Source of the DNA: a virus
Strand: one strand, 5' to 3'
IMG/VR virus record: IMGVR_UViG_3300047353_000994
Location: 1-20,479 of that record
DNA length: 20,479 nt
Made by a program: the position numbers and the translations under genes. Numbering within the stretch: position 1 is the first letter of the stretch; the number at the start of each line of letters is the position of its first letter. Below the pieces are notes generated by a model. It saw nothing but the letters and a program-made list of their open reading frames with translations, was not told the DNA's origin and did no database searches. This document shows positions 1,695 to 12,938 of this stretch, piece after piece.

Positions 1695-2780
1695 ATGCCA
1701 CCACGTAATCATAGTAATTGGACTAAGACGCCAAAGGTAGAATATATTAGCAGTGAATGCTATAATGATCATAGCATTTATCTACGTGAACAAGAAGAAA
1801 TCTTTTCAAAGGTGTGGGTTCCTATGTGCCACATCAGTGAGATGTATAATAAAGATGACTATCGTACTACACAAATTGCAGGTCAAAATGTAATTGCATG
1901 GAATACTGGTGACGGTATTAAGGCAGCATATAATTTACAAATGCAATCACCTGCTGGCAATCAAGTCTCTATTGATAGAGGTTGTGGTAAAAAGCTACAC
2001 TGTGAAGTCAAACATGGTGGTATGGTATGGGTAACACTTGATCCCAATCCTACACAATCAGTTGATGAATGGACAGCGGGTGCATTTGATTGTATTGCTG
2101 ATGCTATTGACACCGAAGAGATGGAAGTTTTTCATTACCATAAAGCAGTTATAGATACTAATTATAAATTATGGCATGATACAAACAGCGAATTCTATCA
2201 TGACTTTATGCATTATTTTAATCGTGTGTCAGGATTCAACGATGAATACTTTGCCAGAAAAAATATACCATTCGATAATGGCCACGTTAATGTTAGTTCA
2301 TTTACAGTCAACTACGAAGAGTATGATGGGTTTGAGGATAGAGGCGAGCTTAGTTTCCCTAACCTCCCACCAAATCAATGGTATATGGTTGATTTATTCC
2401 CTGGATTTAATTTTAATTTACGCGGTAGCGCTTATAGAAGCGACAGCGTCACACCTCTTGGGCCAAACAAAGTACTTATTGAGTTTAGAGGGTATGGTCT
2501 CAGAAAAGATACGCCAGAAGAAAGGCAAACTAGAATAAAACACCATAACTCTATATGGGGACCATTCGGTCGTAACCTACATGAAGATTTAATTGGTGTT
2601 GCAGGTCAAGGTACTACAATGAGAGAAGGTACCGAATCAAGAAACATTCTACATGGTCGCCATGAAAATTCTACAATTCATGATGAAGTTGGAATGAGAC
2701 ATTATTACGAAGCATGGGGAAATATGTTGGGCGTAACTCCAATGAATCCTTTACAATTTGAAAAGGCAAAGGCTGCATAA
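1695..2780 (+). CDS. Rieske-type aromatic-ring-hydroxylase-like alpha subunit lacking Rieske ligands
   Basis: This 361-residue protein follows a strong AAGGAG at 8-nt spacing. It aligns in outline with Rieske non-heme iron oxygenase large subunits: the N-terminal EQEEIFSKVWVPMCH, then GGMVWVTLDPNP (about 108-119), then a catalytic domain. The iron site is intact: H169 and H173 in EFYHDFMH and D298 in NLHEDLIG fit the 2-His-1-carboxylate facial triad. The CxH...CxxH cluster motif, expected around residues 78-107, is absent; that stretch reads NLQMQSPAGNQ and then LHCEVKHGG. Known enzymes of this class need the [2Fe-2S] centre to feed electrons to the iron, so this protein must either use another electron route or do different chemistry. 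It is coupled to two small genes downstream. Substrate unknown; class assignment fairly secure. Confidence 0.75.
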   Translation: MPPRNHSNWTKTPKVEYISSECYNDHSIYLREQEEIFSKVWVPMCHISEMYNKDDYRTTQIAGQNVIAWNTGDGIKAAYNLQMQSPAGNQVSIDRGCGKKLHCEVKHGGMVWVTLDPNPTQSVDEWTAGAFDCIADAIDTEEMEVFHYHKAVIDTNYKLWHDTNSEFYHDFMHYFNRVSGFNDEYFARKNIPFDNGHVNVSSFTVNYEEYDGFEDRGELSFPNLPPNQWYMVDLFPGFNFNLRGSAYRSDSVTPLGPNKVLIEFRGYGLRKDTPEERQTRIKHHNSIWGPFGRNLHEDLIGVAGQGTTMREGTESRNILHGRHENSTIHDEVGMRHYYEAWGNMLGVTPMNPLQFEKAKAA

Positions 2781-3377: not shown

Positions 3378-3995
3378 ATGAGTTATAATAGTTTATTATC
3401 TTTTGGTGACTTGATACCTTTAAAATTAAAGTGTGATGTCAAGAAGTTATTTGACGAAACGGAAGAGTTCGTCTATCTAAAATACAATCCAAGAAAAGAT
3501 ATAGAAAGATACGGTTTAAGTATTACCAGTTTAGACGGTTCTTTAAATGGTATAGATTTAGATTCTATAAAAGAATATAATAAAGAAAATAATACTGAAT
3601 ATGATGAGTTATCTTTTAATAAATTTACAGATGTTTATAATATTAGTTCAGAAATACAAAAAATAGTAGAACCATTTAAAAATCATATAGGTCGTTCACA
3701 CATTTTACATTTGGCAAAGGGTGGTTATTTTCCACCTCATAGAGATTTGCCTGTGTATGTAGAACAACAGAATAGTTTAAGAGTATTAATACCTTTGAAA
3801 GGTTGTAATCCACCAGATATGTATTTTATGTACGAAGATAAACCATTACATTTTGAACATGGTAGGGCATATTTTTTAAACACAAATAAAGCACATAATC
3901 TATTTGCATTTAAAGATAGTTATATGATAGTATTAAATATAAAAACAAGTGAGCAAGTGTATCAGATTTTAGGAAACAATTTCCAGGCGAGTTAA
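3378..3995 (+). CDS. 2OG-Fe(II) dioxygenase, aspartyl/asparaginyl beta-hydroxylase-like (1 of 7)
   Basis: This is a 205-residue protein with a weak GGA ribosome binding site. The C-terminal half fits the Asp/Asn beta-hydroxylase cupin pattern: HLAKGGYFPPHRD supplies the H121-x-D123 iron ligands, LRVLIPL follows, and HGRAYFLNTNKAHNLF supplies the distal H173. The canonical 2OG-binding Arg after the distal His is not obvious (MIVLNI instead of RxxLxx). The family hydroxylates Asp/Asn or other substrates using O2 and 2-oxoglutarate. It opens the 15-gene enzyme run, with the first sharp AT-rich shift. Substrate cannot be read from sequence. Confidence 0.72.
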   Translation: MSYNSLLSFGDLIPLKLKCDVKKLFDETEEFVYLKYNPRKDIERYGLSITSLDGSLNGIDLDSIKEYNKENNTEYDELSFNKFTDVYNISSEIQKIVEPFKNHIGRSHILHLAKGGYFPPHRDLPVYVEQQNSLRVLIPLKGCNPPDMYFMYEDKPLHFEHGRAYFLNTNKAHNLFAFKDSYMIVLNIKTSEQVYQILGNNFQAS

Positions 3996-3996
3996 T

Positions 3997-4557
3997 TTGA
4001 CGTTTTTATATATTTACATTTTGTATTACACTATGGTAACTATTGGAATTACTTGGGGTTATCACCGATGTTTTGCACATAATGAAATAAAAGTAAATTT
4101 AGTAATCGAATGTATAATGCTTTATTTTGGATTATTGTGTGGAGGACAGTCTGCATTAAGTTGGTGTGGTGTTCATAGAATGCATCATGCCTATTCAGAT
4201 ACACCACAAGATCCTCATAGTCCATTATATAAAAAATGGTATGAAATAGTTTTTTCGAGTTGGAAAGTAAAAAATATTCCAAGGAAATTTGTAAAGGATC
4301 TATATGAAAATCCTAGGGTAATGTTTTTCCATAAGTATGGTTGGCCAATAATAATATCAACATGGGCATTGGCAATATATTTTTATGTCATCCATTATTT
4401 AATATCAGTATATCTATTATCATATATATTTTATGGTATGCTAAATTTATTTGGTCACTCAGAAAATGGTCCAGTAAATAAATGGTGGATTAATCTATTT
4501 GCACCATTTGAAGGACAACACAGAGATCATCATGAAACAAAACATATTAAATCGTAG
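3997..4557 (+). CDS. Minimal fatty-acid (delta-9-type) desaturase
   Basis: The 186-residue integral membrane di-iron enzyme has all three His boxes of the acyl-CoA/acyl-lipid desaturase family: HRCFAH (23-28), HRMHH (60-64) and HRDHH (175-179), plus NLFGH (150-154). Hydrophobic segments flank them (about 3-20, 35-55, 115-150). Family members of about 300 residues usually have more N- and C-terminal sequence, so this is a stripped-down version. The TTG start at 3997, one base after the previous stop, is favoured over the ATG at 4033 because it restores part of the first membrane segment, which enters GITWGYHR. It points to an acyl chain as one substrate of the surrounding operon. Confidence 0.82.
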   Translation: MTFLYIYILYYTMVTIGITWGYHRCFAHNEIKVNLVIECIMLYFGLLCGGQSALSWCGVHRMHHAYSDTPQDPHSPLYKKWYEIVFSSWKVKNIPRKFVKDLYENPRVMFFHKYGWPIIISTWALAIYFYVIHYLISVYLLSYIFYGMLNLFGHSENGPVNKWWINLFAPFEGQHRDHHETKHIKS

Positions 4558-5287
4558 TAAAGCAGTTAGAACCTCTATTCTACCAGAAGTTTATAATACA
4601 ATAAAAGATATACCTGTAGATTTTGACGGTATAACCAATTACAAAACAAATATCATTGAGTGGTTAAAACCAATGGTAGACCTAACAGGCTATCATGTTT
4701 ATCCACGCAATGGTATTACTGAAGGATTAGATTGGTGGTATAATAGAGAGTTGCGCGGCGTAAATATAAGAGAAGGTGACTATCAATGGATTGATAGTAA
4801 AAAGGGTGAAGGTAAAATTGCTTACATTAGTCTACCTAGTTCTATAGATGGAAATATAGATATAGGACCAAAACTTTGTCCTATTGCGCTAGATCTTGCA
4901 TATGTTGGTAGTACACAAATTAAACCAATTGAGTTAGATACAATCGATTATGCTTTCTATAGTTTAAGTAAATCATTCGGCGTAAGAAATATAAGGACCG
5001 GATGGATATTTACAAAGGAACCGGATCCTAAACTAGAGGCATTGACTTTTAGTGCAAAGTATTATAATTATTATGCACATCAAGTTGCTGAAAATATTAT
5101 AAGTAACTACGATATAGATTATGTACATAATCGTTTATATGATGAACAACTACGTGTATGTAAAGAATTAAACGTAACACCAAGTGACAGTGTTTGGTTA
5201 GCAACAAGTACACATAACGATTGGAGCAAGTTTAGAAGAAAAGATAACCTTGCTCGTATATGTTTAGCAGGAGTTTTTAAATTATGA
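4532..5287 (+). CDS. Minimal PLP-dependent aminotransferase-like protein
   Basis: At 251 residues this is far shorter than normal fold-type I aminotransferases (about 400) but keeps the active-site marks in order: NGITEG (60-65), DLAYVG with the pyridine-binding D121 and Y124, SLSKSFG with the Schiff-base lysine K147, R155 in RTGW, and a late ARICLAG whose R242 matches the substrate-carboxylate arginine. The N-terminal small-domain portion is strongly reduced. The ATG at 4532 is chosen; an upstream in-frame ATG at 4499 would enlarge the overlap with the desaturase. It overlaps that gene by 26 nt. It could be a real transaminase or a decarboxylase-type PLP enzyme; the substrate is unknown. Confidence 0.75.
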   Translation: MKQNILNRSKAVRTSILPEVYNTIKDIPVDFDGITNYKTNIIEWLKPMVDLTGYHVYPRNGITEGLDWWYNRELRGVNIREGDYQWIDSKKGEGKIAYISLPSSIDGNIDIGPKLCPIALDLAYVGSTQIKPIELDTIDYAFYSLSKSFGVRNIRTGWIFTKEPDPKLEALTFSAKYYNYYAHQVAENIISNYDIDYVHNRLYDEQLRVCKELNVTPSDSVWLATSTHNDWSKFRRKDNLARICLAGVFKL

Positions 5288-5904
5288 AAAAACACAATTT
5301 GCCAACGATATCTAATTTCAATTTAAATATTGATCTTACTAAATTACAAATGGAAACTGACAAGCTAACAGAAAAATTCGTAGATGTTAAATCAGCCAAT
5401 CCAATGTTATGTGATAATCATATGGAACTCGTAAGTCAAGTTTATGATAATTTTGAACAAATTAATTTAACGACACCTAGTAAAATTTTACCTCATACTA
5501 CAAGCATTAAAGAAAGATTAAAACGTAGAGAAGAACATTTATACAATGTTCCTACTAAAGATTATACTGGAAGTTATTTTGAAAAAATTATTACACAACT
5601 TAATGCTTCTGCAAGTAGAATCCGGATTACAAAACTTGCTTGTAATAAAGTGATACCTTTTCACGTAGATTATGATATAAATTATGCTGTAAGGTGTATA
5701 TGTCCTATCTATGGTGATGATCAAGTTGTAAATCTATTTAAGCGAGATAATAAACTTGAAGCATATAATCTAGAAAATGGCAAAGCTTACTTTTTAAATA
5801 TTGGTTATCCTCATGCAGTTGTAAATATGAGTAATAAACCAAGGATCGCATTAATGTTTAGTTTAGATGGTACCGATGATCTGGAAACTATGTGGAATAC
5901 GTAA
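5284..5904 (+). CDS. 2OG-Fe(II) dioxygenase, Asp/Asn beta-hydroxylase-like (2 of 7)
   Basis: This is a 206-residue protein whose ATG overlaps the previous TGA (ATGA). A helical N-terminal half of unclear role is followed by the beta-hydroxylase core: IPFHVDY gives H127-x-D129, VRCICPIYG is the core strand, and GKAYFLNIGYPHAVVN gives H177. R187 in KPRIALMF is the expected 2-oxoglutarate-binding arginine. All four hallmark residues are present, so it should be catalytically competent. Its neighbours are an aminotransferase-like gene and a GNAT-like gene. It differs strongly from the first dioxygenase of the run outside the motifs, arguing for distinct substrates. Confidence 0.75.
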   Translation: MKKHNLPTISNFNLNIDLTKLQMETDKLTEKFVDVKSANPMLCDNHMELVSQVYDNFEQINLTTPSKILPHTTSIKERLKRREEHLYNVPTKDYTGSYFEKIITQLNASASRIRITKLACNKVIPFHVDYDINYAVRCICPIYGDDQVVNLFKRDNKLEAYNLENGKAYFLNIGYPHAVVNMSNKPRIALMFSLDGTDDLETMWNT

Positions 5905-6331
5905 TTACAAAAAAGAAATTGATATTCTTTTTCAGCAAAATAAATATCATAAGCATGCAAGCAATTATTTAAAATATCCACTATTTGAATGGACAGCCTT
6001 TGCACGTATGGGATTTGATCCTCATCTTGTTTATTACTCTGCAGGTATTGAAAGACCTGAATATAATGGCTCTATTCGAATTATGTCTAGACATACTAGA
6101 GATATAAAATATAATTTTGGTGGATGGAAAGCAGATTTAACTAGAGGATTGGAAACGCTAGACTTATCAACAGAAATGGCTATTGATTTAGGGTATGATG
6201 ATATTTGGGTTTCACGTGAAGAAAGTCCTAACTTATTAGAATATTTTAAAAGTAATAGTAAATATAAATGGAAAGTTAATTACGAAAGATTACCAGTTGG
6301 AGGAACACAGTATGTCCTTCGTAAAGCGTAA
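5867..6331 (+). CDS. GNAT-like N-acetyltransferase-fold protein (tentative)
   Basis: The product is 154 residues if the ATG at 5867 is used; an ATG at 5876 is also possible and neither has a good ribosome binding site. The central part, GSIRIMSRHTRDI then LTRGLETLDLSTEMAIDLGYDDIWVSREES, has the strand-helix pattern of GNAT proteins. In that pattern an Arg-rich loop stands before the helix that would hold acetyl-CoA, but the canonical Q/RxxGxG/A motif is not clear. It ends in GGTQYVLRK. Similar proteins occur in marine T4-like phage genomes. It overlaps the dioxygenase upstream by 38 nt and the radical SAM gene downstream by 20 nt. Acyl transfer is a guess. Confidence 0.5.
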   Translation: MVPMIWKLCGIRNYKKEIDILFQQNKYHKHASNYLKYPLFEWTAFARMGFDPHLVYYSAGIERPEYNGSIRIMSRHTRDIKYNFGGWKADLTRGLETLDLSTEMAIDLGYDDIWVSREESPNLLEYFKSNSKYKWKVNYERLPVGGTQYVLRKA

Positions 6332-7790
6332 AGTTTTCTTAGGAACAATATCTTCAGTATACGAAGATTGGGCACCTTATGCTGTAGGGTGTTTAATTTC
6401 GCATTGCTTAAAAAACGAATTTATTGAAAAGCATTATGAATTTTTAGAACCAGAATATAGACATAAGTGGGATACTGAAGAATTTAATTTAAAGCTAAAA
6501 CAAACTGATATTCTAGGGTTAACGTGTTATGTTTGGAATCAGGTAGCAAATGATAAAATAGCAAAGCGGTTTAAAGAATATAATCGAAATGGTATAGTTA
6601 TCTTTGGTGGTCCTAATGTACCAGAAGATAATTTAGAAGATTATAAAAGAAGCTTTGTTGATCACTATATCACCGGTCCAGGTGAACTACAATTTGAAAA
6701 AATATTAGATCCATCTGCAAATACTGAATACGTAATTCCAACTCCGTATACTGATGGAATACTCGATACTATTATAAAAAATAATGTTAGTGTTGCTTAT
6801 GAAACTAATAGAGGATGCCCATATAGGTGTGCATTTTGTGATTGGGGCGGTGTATCACGTAGTAAAATTAAAAAGGTAAATGATAATGATGTGTATGAAA
6901 ATATAGATTATATTCTAAAACATAAAGTTAAACGTCTTGAAATCCTTGATGCTAATTATGGCATATTTGAAAGAGACTTAAACTTTATTAAACATATTGT
7001 TGACAATAAACAAAGAGATGATATGTTATTGACATTTGCTGGATTTGCAAAAAATGGAAGTAAATGGACTGCACCAATTATGAACTTGGTGATGGATAAT
7101 TTTAATGATAAAAAAAGAAATATAAAAATAAGTTTACAAACATTTACACCAGAAGTTTTAGCCGCAATTGATAGAGATAATATTAAAACAGAAAAACTTT
7201 TAAGCATTTTAGATGATTTAGAAAATGTAGATATTAATACGGAATTAATTATTGGATTACCCGGTGAAACCGCAAGTACTTGGGCTGATACTTTATTTAA
7301 ACATAAAGAGTTAAATATAGATTTTGCGCGGGGATATCCATTATATATTCTACCAAATACACCTATGGCTAAGAAAGAATATCAAGATAAGTATGATATA
7401 AAAACTAAAAAAATGATTTTACCAGATGGTGAAATGTTTGAAATGATATATCAGTGTTATTCTTATGACTTAGAAGAATTAAAAAAAATATATTTAACGT
7501 GGCTATACTTCAATACTTTTTATAACTTTGGTCTCGATAAAACAATTACCAGAGAATCGCTTGATGAATTCTTAGAATCTCCGCCAAGTGTGATGAAAAT
7601 ACACGAAGTTATAGAATCACTCGAAAGAATATTTAAACCAGAACCTGAATTTTATTTAAAAGACTATGATCTTCATTATCTACATTATCAATTAGGAAGA
7701 GGTAATGAACTTGTGTATTTTAAGAGTGCTGGATACCCAATAAATAACTTAGATAAGGAACTTAGAAGTCCTTTTGCGGTGATAACATGA
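6312..7790 (+). CDS. Radical SAM protein, B12-binding-type architecture
   Basis: This 492-residue protein starts at the ATG at 6312, which has GGAGGA at 7-nt spacing; a TTG at 6297 lies inside that ribosome binding site and is rejected. The N-terminal 140 residues resemble the Rossmann-like domain of cobalamin-dependent radical SAM enzymes (ILGLTCYVWNQ, IVIFGGPNVPE), but the DxHxxG cobalamin motif is not visible. The [4Fe-4S] motif is ETNRGCPYRCAFCDWGG, with C169, C173 and C176. The remaining TIM-barrel motifs (ISLQTFTPEVL, ELIIGLPGET) are intact. Such enzymes methylate unreactive carbons or rearrange carbon skeletons. It is the largest enzyme of the operon. Substrate unknown. Confidence 0.85.
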   Translation: MSFVKRKVFLGTISSVYEDWAPYAVGCLISHCLKNEFIEKHYEFLEPEYRHKWDTEEFNLKLKQTDILGLTCYVWNQVANDKIAKRFKEYNRNGIVIFGGPNVPEDNLEDYKRSFVDHYITGPGELQFEKILDPSANTEYVIPTPYTDGILDTIIKNNVSVAYETNRGCPYRCAFCDWGGVSRSKIKKVNDNDVYENIDYILKHKVKRLEILDANYGIFERDLNFIKHIVDNKQRDDMLLTFAGFAKNGSKWTAPIMNLVMDNFNDKKRNIKISLQTFTPEVLAAIDRDNIKTEKLLSILDDLENVDINTELIIGLPGETASTWADTLFKHKELNIDFARGYPLYILPNTPMAKKEYQDKYDIKTKKMILPDGEMFEMIYQCYSYDLEELKKIYLTWLYFNTFYNFGLDKTITRESLDEFLESPPSVMKIHEVIESLERIFKPEPEFYLKDYDLHYLHYQLGRGNELVYFKSAGYPINNLDKELRSPFAVIT

Positions 7791-8266
7791 AAGTAGCAAT
7801 AACTGGTCATACCTCAGGAATTGGTGAGGCATGCTTTAATTATTTTGATTCCATAGGGTTTAGTAGAAGTAACGGATTCAATAATAATAAACCAACTGAT
7901 ATTCTTAATAATCTAAAAGATAGTACAGTCTTTATAAATTGTGCACACGGCGGGTTTGGCCAAGCGAAGATGATGAAAGCCATATTTGATAAATGGCGTA
8001 ATGAACAAAAACACATTATTAATATTGGTGTTACGAAAGTAAGCGTAAGATGTTGGGAACTAGTGCATGAATCCTATAGCGTAGAAAAGCTGGCCGCGCA
8101 TGCCATGGTAGATCAATGCCAATCGTTAGAAAGAAAATGTAGAATAAGTAATTTGTGTTTAGGTGTAGTTGAAAATTACAACGGCATCATAACCTATAAT
8201 CAAATAATAAACACGATAATATATATTATTGATAGAGAATATGAAATAAAAGAAATAGTGCTGTGA
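7787..8266 (+). CDS. Short-chain dehydrogenase/reductase-like mini-protein
   Basis: Its ATG overlaps the radical SAM stop (ATGA). The 159-residue protein retains the SDR landmarks in compressed spacing: TGHTSGIG (6-13, the TGxxxGIG nucleotide-binding turn), NCAHGG (51-56, counterpart of NNAG) and YSVEK (97-101, the YxxxK catalytic pair). Ser before Tyr is not evident. Classical SDRs have about 250 residues, so helices between these landmarks are trimmed and the substrate lid is missing. It would be predicted to reduce a ketone or oxidise an alcohol with NAD(P)H. It ends in a GTGA overlap with the next gene. Confidence 0.72.
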   Translation: MKVAITGHTSGIGEACFNYFDSIGFSRSNGFNNNKPTDILNNLKDSTVFINCAHGGFGQAKMMKAIFDKWRNEQKHIINIGVTKVSVRCWELVHESYSVEKLAAHAMVDQCQSLERKCRISNLCLGVVENYNGIITYNQIINTIIYIIDREYEIKEIVL

Positions 8267-8853
8267 CAAGTTTTATAAAAAAATCAGATGATAAAATTTT
8301 AACTGAAGTGTGGAAGGCGCTAATAGAATTTTACGATTGTATAGATGAACAGGAAATAGCTAAAAAAGTACCACACGGTTATTCAATAAACATTGATGAT
8401 GAAATTAAAACACCTGATTTTATTAAAACTTTAAAAAAATATTTTAATGCAGATGCATCACACGCTTTAAGATTTTTCGAAATTAAAAATCCTGGGTGGG
8501 GAAAACATTTAGATTCCTCGTTGACCGGTGATGTGTATACTGGTTCGTGTATTTGGCCAATAAAAAATTGTAGTTCAGAAAATATTACAAAATGGTATGA
8601 ACATACAAAAGGTAAAGTAGAATGCATAGAATTAAATCATAGTCAAAAAAATAGTGGTGGTTTACCATGGAAATATTCTGATGATAGCGTATTCACACTT
8701 ATTGATTCTACTATTATTGATGGCCCAACCATTATAAGAACAGACATTCCACATGAAGTAAATTCTCCTGACAAAACTAGAGTTATTGCATCATGGAAAT
8801 TAGGAAGTACTAAAAATATATCATGGAACGAGATATGCGATTTATACCAATAG
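8263..8853 (+). CDS. 2OG-Fe(II) dioxygenase-like protein (3 of 7)
   Basis: A GTG start overlaps the previous TGA (GTGA). The 196-residue product shows NPGWGKHLDSS (H82-x-D84), a central strand TGSCIWPIKN, GPTIIRTDIPHEVN (H164), and KTRVIASWKLG (R173). This order matches the double-stranded beta-helix of Asp/Asn-hydroxylase-like dioxygenases. The N-terminal 60 residues are helical and not recognised. Iron- and 2OG-binding residues are all in place. It lies between a mini-SDR and another dioxygenase, so sequential oxidation of one substrate is conceivable. Confidence 0.65.
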   Translation: MTSFIKKSDDKILTEVWKALIEFYDCIDEQEIAKKVPHGYSINIDDEIKTPDFIKTLKKYFNADASHALRFFEIKNPGWGKHLDSSLTGDVYTGSCIWPIKNCSSENITKWYEHTKGKVECIELNHSQKNSGGLPWKYSDDSVFTLIDSTIIDGPTIIRTDIPHEVNSPDKTRVIASWKLGSTKNISWNEICDLYQ

Positions 8854-9485
8854 ACATACCTAAATTTAATTTTAAACAAAAAGTATTAGACGAGTTCAAT
8901 CCTAATACAAAATTCTATTGGTGGTCAGAAGAATATATCACTGAATGGGATATTAAAGAAATACTCCATGATCCACCTAAGATGCGTAATGTACACTTAG
9001 AGTTACAAGAGCATATTGAAAAATATCTTCCCTTTGATTCAATTACTCTATGCAAATTATCTAGAGCTAATATTGATGTAGATGCACATGTTGATGATAG
9101 TTACACATCATTCAAAGGGCCAAAAGATAATTGTAAATTAATTTCAGAAGAATATAGACAGCACCAATTAAAGACTGAACCTTGTGGATACAGAATTTTG
9201 ATTGAAGGTGATCGTACGAGTTTATATCTATCAGATGGTGAACCTGATGTTATTAATCAAAAATTGATATATGGTAATAAAACATACACTAAATCATGTA
9301 TTATACCAGAAACCACAGATTGCTTTGCTTTACAATCATATGGAAGTATGCATGGTGTTAATAAAACGCCTGGTGATGATAATCGTTTACTATGTTTTAT
9401 TATAGGATGGCTTAATGAAGAAAAGCATAATGAACTGATAAAGCGAAGTGAGGAAAGATTTAAAGATTATGTACACTATGCATGA
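8835..9485 (+). CDS. 2OG-Fe(II) dioxygenase-like protein (4 of 7)
   Basis: This 216-residue protein starts at ATG 8835; ATG 8823 is an equally open alternative adding four residues. The core reads ITLCKLSRANIDVDAHVDDSY (H85-x-D87), CGYRILIEG, FALQSYGSMHGVN (H173) and DDNRLLCFIIGWLN (R184). All ligands for Fe(II) and 2-oxoglutarate are present. A 20-residue insert (about 90-112) precedes the central strand, which is unlike the other copies. It overlaps the upstream gene by 19 nt and the methyltransferase-like gene by 17 nt. The substrate cannot be inferred. Confidence 0.68.
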   Translation: MRFIPIDIPKFNFKQKVLDEFNPNTKFYWWSEEYITEWDIKEILHDPPKMRNVHLELQEHIEKYLPFDSITLCKLSRANIDVDAHVDDSYTSFKGPKDNCKLISEEYRQHQLKTEPCGYRILIEGDRTSLYLSDGEPDVINQKLIYGNKTYTKSCIIPETTDCFALQSYGSMHGVNKTPGDDNRLLCFIIGWLNEEKHNELIKRSEERFKDYVHYA

Positions 9486-10089
9486 AAATACGTATTGGCC
9501 TACGTTTAAAAAAGTTTTTGATTTTTACAAGCCTAAAACTATTGTAGAAGTTGGTACATATTACGGAGGACTTTCATACAGATTTCATGAGCTTTTAAAT
9601 GGAACGGGCCAAGTTTTTGGTGTACAGACCCCAGATGAGAATAAGCTAATCCATGTGCCAGATTCTAATATGGGTGATTACAGTGTAGGTGAAGCAGACG
9701 GGCATATTGATTATAGACTGGGCAAACATGACTGGAAACGCGCAGTCAAGAAATATTTTCCGGAAAAATATCATTATCACTATGACTTTAACTTAGTCAT
9801 CGAAACATTTCAACAGATGGAACACGGCACATTAATTTTAGATACATCACCTTTTGTATATCCATGGAAGATAGGTTATGACCTTTGCATACTTGATATT
9901 ACAACAGAAATTGAAGAAAACGAAAAACAAGTAGATTATTGGATTAAGTATGGTAATGAAGGATCAGTGTTAATGGTAGGCGCATGGACACATCAAGATA
10001 AATTTTATGAGTTATCTAAAAACAAATATAGTTTTTTGACAAAAGAAATAATAAAGGAAGGTTCTGAGCATGTCCTATTGCGCTTATGA
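9469..10089 (+). CDS. Class I SAM-dependent methyltransferase-like protein
   Basis: The product is 206 residues from ATG 9469; GTG 9448 and ATG 9478 are alternatives. The N-terminal motif TIVEVGTYYGGLSYRF (residues about 24-39) is the glycine-rich motif I of class I methyltransferases, of the cephalosporin-hydroxylase/macrocin-O-methyltransferase kind. GQVFGVQTPDE (47-57) places an acidic motif II nearby. GYDLCILDITTE is the motif around the post-methyl loop, where LD could bind metal in catechol-type enzymes. It is the only methyltransferase of the run. O-methylation of a hydroxyl made by a neighbouring dioxygenase is a reasonable but untested idea. Confidence 0.65.
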   Translation: MYTMHENTYWPTFKKVFDFYKPKTIVEVGTYYGGLSYRFHELLNGTGQVFGVQTPDENKLIHVPDSNMGDYSVGEADGHIDYRLGKHDWKRAVKKYFPEKYHYHYDFNLVIETFQQMEHGTLILDTSPFVYPWKIGYDLCILDITTEIEENEKQVDYWIKYGNEGSVLMVGAWTHQDKFYELSKNKYSFLTKEIIKEGSEHVLLRL

Positions 10090-10681
10090 ATTAAACATAC
10101 CAAATTTGGAAGAATTAAAAAATGAAATACATGAATATACTAACAATTTTGATTGGAAAGGAGATTGGCCACCTTGCCAAAACTATAAAAATATAGGACC
10201 TAATGTTCTTAAATTTTATAAATTGTTTAATCATTGCTTTATGAATACAGTTAGAATTATAAAATCTCCAGCAGAAACTAATTGGTTGCCCCATATAGAA
10301 ATTGATCACGGTGGAAAATTTGATAAATTTAAAGGTGAGATAGATAATTCACAACAAATTAATTCAGTAATAAACATTATGGTTGTTAATTCTGTAGAAG
10401 ATGAAACTAGATTTTATTTTGACAGAGATTTAAATAAGTTTTATCATCCTACTAAAGAACCATTTTCACCTGAATATTCTAGATATGATAGAAAAAAAGA
10501 TTTAAAACTAATAGATAAATTTAACGTAAATAAAAATCCAGTTTTAATTAATACTGGAACTTGGCATGCTATAAAAAACAATTCCCCTAGAGTAGGTTTA
10601 TCGTTTTTTGTGCACCCATGGATATCTTTTGAAGCTGTAGTAGATTTTTGCAGGGATAATAATATATTAATAGAAAGATGA
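10070..10681 (+). CDS. 2OG-Fe(II) dioxygenase-like protein, HxE variant (5 of 7)
   Basis: This 203-residue protein is preceded by AAGGAAGG, though at long spacing. Pattern: VRIIKSPAETNWLPHIEID (H75-x-E77, so Glu replaces the usual Asp; D79 is a possible alternative), INIMVVN as core strand, PVLINTGTWHAIKN (H166) and SPRVGLSFF (R174). The layout and the C-terminal helix after VHPW closely parallel the last gene of the run at 12303-12938, so these two are probably paralogues. Glu can serve as the carboxylate ligand in some family members. It is followed by a sulfotransferase-like gene with ATGA overlap. Confidence 0.6.
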   Translation: MSYCAYELNIPNLEELKNEIHEYTNNFDWKGDWPPCQNYKNIGPNVLKFYKLFNHCFMNTVRIIKSPAETNWLPHIEIDHGGKFDKFKGEIDNSQQINSVINIMVVNSVEDETRFYFDRDLNKFYHPTKEPFSPEYSRYDRKKDLKLIDKFNVNKNPVLINTGTWHAIKNNSPRVGLSFFVHPWISFEAVVDFCRDNNILIER

Positions 10682-11250
10682 TTATATTTGAAAACAAAAT
10701 AATATTACTATTACCAAAAAATGGCACACATAGCATTATGATGGAACATGGCGTTAATCCATGGGATGGTCCTGGCAGCTACACAAGATTAAATAAAAAT
10801 GATGCATTAATATTTTTAGATGGAGATAGTCCGCATTTGCCGGCAAATAGAATACCAAAAAGATTTGAACATTTGCCTAATTATGCACTAGTTAGAAATC
10901 CATGGTTTAGAACAATAACTAGATATTTTTGGACAAAACGGAGAAATTGGTTTAAAGAAAAAATATCAATAGACGAATATGTAGAACAAAAATATTTTCC
11001 GGAAAAATTAAAAGGCGATTATATCTATGAAGAATGGGCTGGTACAAGCTGGAGACCACAAATAGAATGGTTTAATGAAAAAACAATAGTTTCAAAATTT
11101 GAAGATTATAATTTTAAATTTCATTTTAATGAAAGTAAAAATAAATATAATATTAAAATATCAAAAAAAACAGCGAATTTAATAGGTGATTATTATTTAC
11201 CAGATATAAAAAAATTTAATTATAATGTACCAGAAGGAATAATACAATGA
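10678..11250 (+). CDS. Sulfotransferase-like protein, copy A
   Basis: This is a 190-residue protein with an ATGA junction. The N-terminal strand-loop KIILLLPKNGTHSIMM has the PK-x-G-(S/T) 5'-phosphosulfate-binding loop (residues 13-20) of PAPS-dependent sulfotransferases. LVRNPWFRTITRYFW (71-85) is the 3'-phosphate-binding VRNPxxRxxSxY signature. Both occur in the right order, with 50-odd residues between. Total length is shorter than the usual 250-300. Sulfation of a glycan or other hydroxyl is predicted. Copy B at 11771 shares HGVNPW/FGVNPW, DSPHLPA/GSPHMPA and the same motif spacing. The two copies bracket one dioxygenase gene. Confidence 0.72.
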   Translation: MIIFENKIILLLPKNGTHSIMMEHGVNPWDGPGSYTRLNKNDALIFLDGDSPHLPANRIPKRFEHLPNYALVRNPWFRTITRYFWTKRRNWFKEKISIDEYVEQKYFPEKLKGDYIYEEWAGTSWRPQIEWFNEKTIVSKFEDYNFKFHFNESKNKYNIKISKKTANLIGDYYLPDIKKFNYNVPEGIIQ

Positions 11251-11774
11251 TAATTATTAAAGACAATTTTTTAGAAGAAGATTATTTGCGGTCTTTAATT
11301 AATCTTGTTAATAGTGCTGAAAGAATGAAACTAGATTCTACTGGAACTCATGTAATGCAAGCGCGATCAGATTATGATTGGTATATGATTAGCTCAAAAG
11401 AACTAAGAACTACACCAATACGTTATCCTCTTCTTGAAAAAATAGATGCACTAACAGGAGAAAAAACTAAAGAAAATCTAACTCATATTCATTTGTTTGC
11501 AAAAGAGTTTGATGAAGGTAGTTACTGTGCACCTCATGTAGAAGACCCAAAATTATATGGTGATTGGGCGTTTATGCTATATTGCACTGATGAAGAAGAT
11601 GGTGCATTATCTGGAGACGGCTTTTCAATTTTACCAAGATATAATAGATTAGTTCTAATGAGGACAGGAACGGTTATGCATAAAGTTGATAAGTGTTCTG
11701 GTAGTAGATTAAATATAGCAGGATGGCCTTATGCTACAGATGAAGTTGTAAAAAGGTGGAGAGAAAATAATTGA
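11247..11774 (+). CDS. 2OG-Fe(II) dioxygenase, prolyl-4-hydroxylase-like (6 of 7)
   Basis: This 175-residue protein has an ATGA junction. It differs from the beta-hydroxylase-like copies and looks more like the P4H type: HLFAKEFDEGSYCAPHVED (82-100) gives H97 with E99 or D100 as carboxylate. WAFMLYCTD follows as a core strand, then GGD-like GDGFSILPRYNRLVLM, TVMHKVD (H145) and SRLNIAGW (R154). The N-terminal MIIIKDNFLEEDY is the start typical of such hydroxylases. HxE instead of HxD leaves the exact carboxylate ligand open. It lies between the two sulfotransferase-like paralogues, so its product could be the hydroxyl acceptor for sulfation. Confidence 0.7.
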   Translation: MIIIKDNFLEEDYLRSLINLVNSAERMKLDSTGTHVMQARSDYDWYMISSKELRTTPIRYPLLEKIDALTGEKTKENLTHIHLFAKEFDEGSYCAPHVEDPKLYGDWAFMLYCTDEEDGALSGDGFSILPRYNRLVLMRTGTVMHKVDKCSGSRLNIAGWPYATDEVVKRWRENN

Positions 11775-12322
11775 TTATTTTTCCTGATAGAATTTTTATT
11801 CTTATACCTAAATGTGGCTGCGTGAGTGTGATGGCTGGATTTGGTGTAAATCCATGGGGTAAGAATATAAAAAATAAAGAAAATGTAGAAGATGCAGTTG
11901 TTTTCATGAGAGGTGGCAGTCCTCATATGCCTGCCTCACAAATACCAGAAAGATTTAAACATTTGCCTACTGAAGCAATTGTGAGAAACCCTTGGGATAG
12001 AACAGTTTCTCGATATTACCATCTTATAAAACAAACAGGCTCTGATATATCTTTTGAAGACTTTGTTATTAATACACCATTTCCATTTCCGGGTCGTTTT
12101 AATGTATCGCACTGGGCACCAGATAGTTGGGTACAACAAAGTGAATACATAAGCCATGACACAAAAGTGCATAAGTTTGAAGAATTTGATTTTTTAGTAC
12201 ATTTGAATAAAACTGAACATAAACCTTATAGAGAATTGTATAATCATAAGTTACAAGACCTAATCGCAACATATTATAAAGATGATATAGAAAGGTTCAA
12301 TTATGAATTTTGGCCAGAATAA
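11771..12322 (+). CDS. Sulfotransferase-like protein, copy B
   Basis: This 183-residue paralogue of the 10678 gene starts at a TTG that overlaps the upstream TGA (TTGA). PKCGCVSV (13-20) takes the place of the PKNGTHSI phosphosulfate loop, and VRNPWDRTVSRYYH (71-84) is a textbook 3'-phosphate motif. In the phosphosulfate loop Gly-Cys replaces the usual Gly-Ser/Thr, which may change activity. HW..DSWVQQSEY matches EW..TSWRPQIEW of copy A, showing that similarity extends beyond the cofactor site. Divergence between the copies suggests two acceptors or two positions on one acceptor. Confidence 0.7.
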   Translation: MIIFPDRIFILIPKCGCVSVMAGFGVNPWGKNIKNKENVEDAVVFMRGGSPHMPASQIPERFKHLPTEAIVRNPWDRTVSRYYHLIKQTGSDISFEDFVINTPFPFPGRFNVSHWAPDSWVQQSEYISHDTKVHKFEEFDFLVHLNKTEHKPYRELYNHKLQDLIATYYKDDIERFNYEFWPE

Positions 12323-12938
12323 CCCGTGTTACGAATTAAATTTAGATATAAATGAAAATTATAAAACTTTAGTATTATCTGCATTTGATGAATTAAAAGA
12401 TAAAAACAAAAAATATTTACAACCAGAAGCAACTAAGAAAGAGTTTCCAGAATTATGGAATATTCTAGGTCCTTTAGAGCCATGGTTTTGTGAAAAGGTT
12501 CGAATCATAAATCATACTACCGAAGACTTAGGAACATCAGCTATACACTTAGATGTGAATGAACACTTACAATATGAAAGCACCAGCCCAGATGCTATTA
12601 CACAATGTGCTTTGAATATTCCATTATTTGAACCTGTAGGTGATATTACGCGTTGGTGGAGGCAAAAAAACCCGGATGTAATTATGCCATATGATTTTTG
12701 GATTGGTGATGGCAATAGTTTAGAAACTCATAAGACTAATAATAATATCTATGATATGGAATGTATATATGAGTTTGAAATAAAAAATAAGCCAGTACTA
12801 TTTAGAACAGGTATATGGCACAACTGTGAGCAAAAAGCACCACAAATTAGATGCATGTTAAGTTTTCATGCTCATTACACAGTTGATTGGGATACTTTAG
12901 TAGCAACAGCAAAAAAATATGATTTAATTTCACTTTAA
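12303..12938 (+). CDS. 2OG-Fe(II) dioxygenase-like protein (7 of 7)
   Basis: The 211-residue last gene of the run overlaps the sulfotransferase-like gene by 20 nt. The core is VRIINHTTEDLGTSAIHLDVNE (H82-x-D84), CALNIPLF, PVLFRTGIWHNCEQ (H173) and PQIRCMLSFHAHY (R183). It is evidently related to the 10070 copy, with the same order and the same C-terminal helix (TVDWDTLVATAKKYDLI against SFEAVVDFCRDNNILI). Here the first carboxylate is the standard Asp. Its stop codon lies inside an 11-base palindrome followed by six T, a possible terminator for the long operon. Confidence 0.65.
   Translation: MNFGQNNPCYELNLDINENYKTLVLSAFDELKDKNKKYLQPEATKKEFPELWNILGPLEPWFCEKVRIINHTTEDLGTSAIHLDVNEHLQYESTSPDAITQCALNIPLFEPVGDITRWWRQKNPDVIMPYDFWIGDGNSLETHKTNNNIYDMECIYEFEIKNKPVLFRTGIWHNCEQKAPQIRCMLSFHAHYTVDWDTLVATAKKYDLISL

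Follow-up and report, generated by a model that had tools for sequence, protein, structure and literature searches.

Fifteen overlapping genes in a marine phage: a candidate biosynthetic or tailoring pathway with a recurrent desaturase, aminotransferase-fold and hydroxylase core

Introduction

The auxiliary metabolism of phages is usually described gene by gene, with desaturases, for example, being regarded as membrane fluidisers. The locus described here raises the question of whether a phage may instead carry a pathway, and what such a pathway would act upon. The DNA analysed, referred to as the window, comprises 20,479 nucleotides (positions 1–20,479) of IMG/VR record IMGVR_UViG_3300047353_000994, from a marine virus of bacteria. 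An earlier note on its sequence had described fifteen overlapping genes at 3378–12938, designated A to O here, as a chemical-modification pathway rather than a scatter of single auxiliary genes. In this study, we examined the reality of these genes, their recurrence in other phages and the probable chemistry of their products. If the pathway reading is true, some abundant ocean viruses carry out multi-step syntheses of their own, and viral desaturases would need rereading.

Results

Layout of the island

The fifteen open reading frames all lie on the plus strand and span 3378–12938. Thirteen of the 14 junctions overlap, as the earlier note had reported, and the single gap, a 1 nt interval between A and B, is the only non-coding sequence in the whole operon. 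With refined starts for C (4532), E (5876), F (6312), I (8835) and J (9469), six of the overlaps are of 4 nt (ATGA, GTGA or TTGA) and seven are of 17–29 nt. Promoter-like matches inside the operon occur at chance level (80, versus 74.5 ± 7.3 in shuffled sequences), and no riboswitch was detected in the window with Rfam. The GC content of the cassette in the window is lower, at 0.303 versus 0.372 and 0.376.

A to O were compared with L002, an IMG/VR contig and the closest relative, and with Mosig, an isolated phage of Pelagibacter, and prove to be real genes. The dN/dS ratio relative to L002 is 0.03–0.10 for the three genes with estimable dS, that of A relative to Mosig is 0.12, and for the other genes compared with L002 dS is saturated and dN is 0.08–0.33. 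Near-identical copies of the left part of the island are present in three further assemblies (L003, L005 and L138), and the island is therefore not an assembly artefact. Upstream of A, a gene for a Rieske-type ring-hydroxylating oxygenase alpha subunit (1695–2780, plus strand; Pfam Ring_hydroxyl_A, 1.1e-7) is kept in front of A-B-C in L003, L005, L137 and L138 and lies directly beside B-C-D in L135. This oxygenase is probably an outlying member, and the island seems to reach further left than A.

Recurrence and linkage of the core

D was found at 162 viral loci. Where at least 8 kb flank D in both directions, B and C always accompany it (29 of 29 loci), and they do so in 20 of 20 after near-duplicates were taken out. 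Conversely, among 38 loci carrying C, B is present in 33, D in 33 and both in 30. The linkage survives inversions, B being encoded on the opposite strand at 12 of the 29 D loci. A TauD-like oxygenase occurs in 22 of the 29 D loci; it was considered for the obligate core and rejected, since it was not found in the near-identical contigs of the window or in L002, G003, G005 and G007.

The window and L002 share eleven genes (B–G, I, J, K, M and O) in the same order, and the same set is present, with inversions, in L004, L006, L007 and G007. A, H, L and N are present in the window and absent from L002, and up to twelve radical-SAM genes are found in relatives. B, C and D thus form a fixed core, while F, the six other 2-oxoglutarate (2OG) oxygenases, the methyltransferase, the SDR protein and the sulfotransferases are variable. 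Absence of a conserved gene order elsewhere had been named in the earlier note as a sign of unrelated cargo; many phages turned out to carry the set, with B, C and D fixed, which removes that objection and strongly supports a pathway over scattered auxiliary genes. As a coherent unit the fifteen-gene pathway stands, but it is less uniform than that notion suggests: only B, C and D are constant, and the other twelve or so are lineage-specific.

The genomic setting varies. Mosig has the core beside its tail-fibre genes, where it has been annotated and not described as a pathway, and in L004 and L006 the cluster adjoins T4-type structural genes. In the window and L002 it adjoins DUF932/DUF6267; tail-fibre genes are not adjacent to the window copy, and neither VrlC nor gp14 was recognised in the window. 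Except for Mosig, all the phage sequences behind this evidence are uncultivated contigs. When 84,980 bacterial genomes were scanned with E and with C, using short peptide patterns that could miss distant cellular relatives, the sole match was L136, an 8.6-kb contig in a Ca. Paceibacter MAG. Its first gene is DUF6267, a phage gene, and misbinning of phage DNA is its most likely origin.

The core enzymes B, C and D

B (3997–4557, plus strand) encodes a short membrane di-iron desaturase. It scores above the Pfam FA_desaturase cut-off (3.6e-8; 33.9 bits, cut-off 29.7), its family profile matches SCD1 (4ymk) at 1.6e-19, and its His boxes are complete, with histidines invariant in 26 relatives. B is accordingly classed as an acyl-CoA desaturase-like di-iron enzyme; membership of this family is no proof of an acyl substrate, and acyl desaturation by B is predicted.

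C (4532–5287, plus strand) encodes a miniature, 251-residue PLP enzyme of the class-I aminotransferase fold. Its AlphaFold2 model (pLDDT 95) superimposes on aspartate aminotransferase 2gb3 with a Z score of 18.5 and 3.6 Å over 242 residues, and the SxSK lysine, the PLP-binding Asp121 and the carboxylate-binding Arg242 are invariant in 48 relatives. The Pfam Aminotran_1_2 score is below the cut-off (13.0 versus 19.7 bits), and the assignment follows from the fold and these residues.

D (5284–5904, plus strand), the most conserved of the core genes, encodes a 2OG-Fe(II) hydroxylase of the Asp_Arg_Hydrox family (PF05118, 2e-5; 24.9 bits, cut-off 22.6), in which the facial triad H127xD129 and H177 and the distal R187 are invariant. 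Enzymes of this family also hydroxylate protein residues (AspH) and lipids (LpxO and OlsC). The model of D (pLDDT 89) has Cpz10 (7v4m) as its best structural match, with a Z score of 18.7 at 18% identity, followed by AspH with a Z score of 14.2. Cpz10 β-hydroxylates an amino-acid moiety in caprazamycin biosynthesis (PMC9814697).

The accessory enzymes

Seven of the fifteen products are putative 2OG enzymes, and all seven carry an HxD/E motif with a distal His. Orthologues retain these residues, the acidic one of K being the exception; H had no orthologue for this comparison. Besides D, they are as follows. A (3378–3995) is Asp_Arg_Hydrox-like; it falls below the PF05118 cut-off (0.0039; 17.5 versus 22.6 bits), is related to D in profile–profile comparison (E 4.7e-11) and is 87% identical to Mosig_00081, with H121xD123 and H173 conserved. 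H (8263–8853) has the HxD motif and distal His, and no orthologue was found in the gene strings of all the other loci compared. I (8835–9485), part of an F-(G)-I-J block, has H85xD87, H173 and R184 invariant in six orthologues. K (10070–10681) is a paralogue of O (profile comparison E 5.7e-28) with H75, H166 and R174 invariant and a varying acidic position. M (11247–11774) is an HxE variant (H97xE99, H145 and R154 invariant) with matches to phrog_274 (3.4e-6) and phrog_61 (0.0033) and a sub-threshold Pfam match. O (12303–12938) has H82xD84, H173 and R183 invariant, and its orthologues are 48–88% identical. H, I, J, K and O have no Pfam match. These genes and those described below are all on the plus strand.

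F (6312–7790) encodes a radical SAM protein resembling the cobalamin-dependent C-methyltransferases (TokK/CysS/KedN5-like). It exceeds the Pfam Radical_SAM cut-off (8.4e-9), carries a conserved CxxxCxxC motif and matches TokK (1.2e-52) and CysS (1.6e-34) in PDB profile searches; its match to the B12-binding domain PF02310 is weak (20.1 bits, cut-off 32.1). Equivalence to KedN5 was rejected: NCBIfam NF033712 is matched at 1.2e-44, yet with 152.6 bits against a cut-off of 700. The second methyltransferase candidate, J (9469–10089), is SAM-methyltransferase-like, with orthologues at 41–88% identity, a conserved VExGTYYGG motif and a weak profile match to CmcI (0.053). G (7787–8266) encodes a short, 159-residue SDR-like protein (adh_short 0.014, sub-threshold) whose motifs TGHTxGxG and YxxxK are kept in L002, L004 and L006, YxxxK not being kept in L007 and L015.

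N (11771–12322) is a PAPS sulfotransferase by its Sulfotransfer_2 score (3.3e-7; 31.1 bits, cut-off 22), with the motifs PKCGC and RNPWDRTVSRY. L (10678–11250) is sulfotransferase-like, with a weak match found in PHROGs only (phrog_3347, 0.0065); it has an RNPW motif and can be aligned with N and four phage orthologues. The sulfotransferases require PAPS, and F probably requires cobalamin.

E (5876–6331) encodes a strongly conserved protein, present at 28 viral loci with 58–85% identity across phages. The earlier assignment of E as GNAT-like was not borne out: Pfam and NCBIfam gave no hit at E values up to 0.1, the PDB profile search returned no GNAT, and hhalign comparison with the other GNATs of these islands is not significant (probability under 5). 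Counted together with two other families, partly putative, a gene of this GNAT-like group is found in 17 of the 20 loci, and any methyltransferase gene in 14 of the 20. These counts are no more than suggestive of a conserved acetyltransferase slot and a conserved methyltransferase slot, each occupied by different families.

Discussion

Proposed pathway

The island is very probably one functional unit. The best explanation, held as a whole at about even odds, is a biosynthetic or tailoring pathway carried by the phage, in which three fixed core enzymes are joined by variable decorating enzymes. C and D would act on the same amino-acid-bearing substrate, since C has an aminotransferase fold and D is closest to a β-hydroxylase of amino-acid moieties; we put the odds of an amino-acid-bearing substrate at about even. 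B, a membrane acyl-CoA-desaturase homologue, would oxidise an attached or precursor aliphatic chain. Taken together, these properties make the most likely core product an amino-acid-containing, membrane-associated molecule resembling a lipo-amino acid or an aminolipid, with the odds somewhat against the product being lipid-linked. After the core, F would C-methylate, A, H, I, K, M and O would hydroxylate, J would methylate, G would adjust the redox state, and L and N would sulfate the newly made hydroxyls. The chemistry put forward in the earlier note (desaturate, hydroxylate, aminate, methylate, sulfate) is plausible, apart from the putative GNAT step. Since the island has no recognisable ligase, glycosyltransferase or synthetase, the scaffold would have to be supplied by the host or by some other molecule of the phage. 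Saxitoxin-like and carbapenem-like pathways share enzyme classes with the island and are not proposed, as the scaffold-building enzymes of neither were identified. The most likely use would be an altered envelope of the infected cell or an altered virion surface, affecting adsorption or superinfection exclusion; this would fit the variable accessory set and the tail-fibre neighbourhood in Mosig, and we hold a function in the envelope or virion to be possible at a little under even odds. More tentatively, lytic marine T4-type phages may own a specialised-metabolite pathway, with an obligate desaturase–aminotransferase–hydroxylase core and lineage-specific tailoring, by which a diversified family of small, probably amino-acid-containing molecules is made during infection and for which no chromosomal cluster was found in the scanned bacterial genomes.

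Several other explanations have to be weighed. The enzymes might tailor LPS or surface sugars, with LpxO-like hydroxylation, sulfation and methylation directed at the sugars or the lipid A in the envelope of the host, a role put forward in broad terms for the host recognition cluster of pelagimyophages. N matches Sulfotransfer_2 and phrog_3347 (Gal-3-O-sulfotransferase), Mosig and G006 additionally carry DegT aminotransferase and carbamoyltransferase genes, and host recognition clusters contain glycosyltransferases and LPS genes (PMC7029224). We nevertheless consider this unlikely, because no glycosyltransferase, nucleotide-sugar or O-antigen gene was recognised among the fifteen, the core has no sugar enzyme, and C models as an amino-acid aminotransferase rather than a DegT sugar aminotransferase. 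Hydroxylation, methylation and sulfation of a tail fibre or other virion protein would suit the family of D, with AspH as its next-best structural match (Z 14.2), and the position of the Mosig cluster. The window and L002 copies, however, lie away from recognisable tail-fibre genes, no structural gene accompanies the core with the regularity seen for B and C, and protein modification would be an unusual task for a membrane desaturase or for an enzyme with the fold of an amino-acid aminotransferase; this reading is quite unlikely.

That 2OG and radical-SAM enzymes act on a ribosomal precursor peptide, in a RiPP-type pathway, is highly improbable. Radical-SAM genes are abundant in relatives and F is weakly similar to rSAM_ocin_1 (NCBIfam), but the closer resemblance of F is to TokK and CysS, neither a peptidase nor a leader-binding domain was found, and with 1 nt of non-coding sequence the coding strand of 3378–12938 cannot accommodate a precursor gene of its own, although one may lie at a distance. 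Accumulation of unrelated auxiliary genes in a hypervariable region, a kind of region that exists in T4-type marine phages (PMC7029224), would agree with most island genes being accessory. It is already disfavoured, and improbable, in view of the linkage of B, C and D (29 of 29 and 30 of 38) across rearrangements and different settings, under purifying selection.

The pathway reading draws on an invariant three-enzyme core with swappable tailoring genes, kept in overlapping arrays under purifying selection in dozens of phage contigs and found also in an isolated SAR11 phage. Mosig on HTCC1062 offers a testable system. The island is also a very compact enzyme reservoir, with a full aminotransferase fold in 251 residues and a desaturase in 186.

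Comparison with known systems

The individual chemistries and the hypervariable island are already known, and the linked core is, as far as could be found, undescribed; no description of it was found in the open-licence literature. The pelagimyophage host recognition cluster (HRC) is a large hypervariable island carried by T4-type SAR11 phages, holding radical-SAM cassettes and LPS genes besides the tail fibres; it is defined by position, from VrlC to the neck gene gp14, and read in terms of LPS and host recognition (PMC7029224). The A, B, C and D orthologues of Mosig are located between its tail-fibre genes and VrlC, whereas the window and L002 copies are on the DUF932/DUF6267 side. The passages of PMC7029224 consulted do not describe the B-C-D core. 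Pelagiphage 2OG-Fe(II) oxygenase clusters (PMC9599517) likewise have several non-orthologous 2OG genes close together in SAR11 phages, but these are podophages with a ferrochelatase partner, and no desaturase, aminotransferase, radical SAM or sulfotransferase is mentioned there.

Among biosynthetic systems, the caprazamycin-type nucleoside clusters (PMC9814697) contain Cpz10, the closest fold to D, and share 2OG oxygenases and amino-acid chemistry with the island; the comparison concerns the fold of one enzyme, and neither a uridine-specific nor a transaldolase-type gene could be identified in the window. F matches the profile of the cobalamin-dependent radical SAM C-methyltransferases TokK, CysS and KedN5 over the radical SAM domain, but lies far under the KedN5 subfamily cut-off. 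Finally, B and the fatty acid desaturases encoded by other viruses (PMC7300359 and studies cited therein) are members of one SCD1-like family, which has three His boxes. The latter enzymes are read as single host-membrane fluidisers, whereas the desaturase of the island is linked to C and D.

Operon layout and genomic setting

The fifteen ORFs A–O (3378–12938) lie on the same strand of a linear, 20.5-kb IMG/VR virus fragment and, with conservative starts, leave a total of one non-coding nucleotide inside the 9.5-kb operon: the A/B junction is a gap of 1 nt, and the other 13 of the 14 junctions comprise six overlaps of 4 nt and seven of 17–29 nt. Both flanks are phage-type. The right flank contains DUF932, DUF6267 and a cytidylyltransferase-like gene, DUF6267 being distributed mainly among T4-type cyanophages and their marine relatives. 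Left of the island, a permuted tmRNA of alphaproteobacterial type (1327–1676, +; Rfam alpha_tmRNA 96 bits, tmRNA_permuted 90 bits) precedes a Rieske ring-hydroxylating oxygenase gene (1695–2780, +), which is rare in relatives and also directly adjoins B–C–D in the related locus L135. The GC content of the cassette (0.303) contrasts with that of the left (0.372) and right (0.376) flanks, which suggests an origin in a lower-GC phage; gene A is 87% identical to a gene of Pelagibacter phage Mosig.

Conservation of the B–C–D core

Related viral contigs were compared using F as the first query, followed by D, E and C, with automatic gene calls. F matched the near-identical fragments L003 and L005, and also L002 (88%), L004 (74%), L006 (71%), L007 (65%) and, found later, G007 (64%). 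L002 carries B C D E F G I J K M O and is otherwise collinear with the window; A, H, L and N are therefore gains or losses. L004 and L006 share the string B D S E F G I J K M, downstream of which O and C are inverted; the automatic strings omit three of these genes that ORF comparison recovers, namely K in L004 and both E and M in L006. Between the inverted C and radical-SAM genes of these two contigs (L004, 15737–18735, −; L006, 16957–20757, −) lie proteins of 185–250 amino acids, one of which, by eye, recalls small-molecule or LPS kinases. Gene order is rearranged in L007 and G007. Radical-SAM genes number seven, six and five in the contigs G005, G003 and G006, respectively, and twelve in G007 (L013–L015), an 85-kb phage contig in which they adjoin core genes at about 18–40 kb.

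The D scan gave 162 relatives, of which 80 were kept, and the E scan 28, with neighbourhoods from many phages. All 29 D loci flanked by at least 8 kb in both directions have B and C within 7 kb of D; these loci, like those of the C scan, were picked for similarity and counted without phylogenetic correction, and the answer is identical (20/20) once D sequences more than 88% alike are removed. With C as the starting point, B is present in 33 of 38 loci, D in 33 and both in 30. The strand and order of B and C relative to D vary among loci, and the linkage therefore reflects more than the shared ancestry of a single collinear block. Optional genes in the D loci include a TauD-like oxygenase (22/29), A (18/29), F (10/29) and E (9/29). 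The core is conserved, under selection and co-localised, and the accessories are variable.

A T4-type major capsid gene was found in nine of the 16 core-carrying contigs checked. C is present in three exceptionally long viral contigs that also have T4-type capsid genes, G009, G010 and G013 (342, 519 and 251 kb); the several partial Gp23 matches of G013 could represent more than one phage or pseudogenes. L136 (JABAAK010000084.1), binned as Candidatus Paceibacter, starts with DUF6267 and carries B, C, TauD and D; it is most likely a misbinned phage contig.

Predicted enzymes and proposed pathway

All assigned chemistry is homology-based. B gives an FA_desaturase match above the cut-off, is SCD1-like and retains every His box. 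C has a class-I aminotransferase fold, complete in 251 residues (model pLDDT 95; Z = 18.5 against aspartate aminotransferase), with an invariant PLP lysine, aspartate and C-terminal arginine. The D model (pLDDT 89) matches Cpz10 best (Z = 18.7 over 158 residues), with clearly lower scores for AspH (14.2), proline 3-hydroxylase (14.1) and proline cis-4-hydroxylase (13.8). In the caprazamycin pathway, Cpz10 β-hydroxylates a glycyluridine intermediate on its amino-acid moiety (PMC9814697). Profile comparison separates at least four groups of 2OG oxygenases (A/D, K/O, I and M), with H not assigned to a group; among the accessories, L and N are sulfotransferases by homology, J matches CmcI weakly, and F is a radical SAM enzyme of the TokK/CysS type, whose homologues transfer methyl groups onto unactivated carbons.

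C and D may act on a substrate bearing an amino acid, and B on an aliphatic chain at the membrane. The 2OG enzymes may create hydroxyls that the sulfotransferases and methyltransferases could cap, and F could methylate unactivated carbons as its homologues do. None of the fifteen operon products was recognised as a ligase, synthetase or glycosyltransferase, so the starting material must be a host molecule or another phage molecule.

The only isolate found with the core is Mosig, in which D, C, B and A are located between annotated tail-fibre genes and VrlC, a region that corresponds to the hypervariable host recognition cluster described by Zaragoza-Solas et al. (PMC7029224). Neither the Mosig genome announcement nor the Melnitz paper discusses the cluster. 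Variable tailoring beside the Mosig tail fibres suggests a surface role at the host–virus interface; however, the copies of the island in the window and L002 are sited away from such a setting. An envelope or virion function is a tentative reading, to which we assign a probability of roughly 0.4. Mosig (L030, 20991–31306) and G006 (11.5–22.1 kb) also have in common a second conserved block, with orthologues of at most 59% identity, that encodes nitroreductases, MoaA-like radical-SAM proteins, a DegT aminotransferase, a carbamoyltransferase and a methyltransferase.

Comparison with known systems

No description of the near-obligate linkage of desaturase, aminotransferase-fold protein and hydroxylase, or of the core-plus-tailoring organisation, was found in the literature searched. 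Clustered 2OG oxygenases of phages (PMC9599517) and viral desaturases (PMC7300359) are already known, as are hypervariable islands in phages. We class the island among phage metabolic gene islands, and there is a real chance that it represents a virus-specific class of specialised metabolism.
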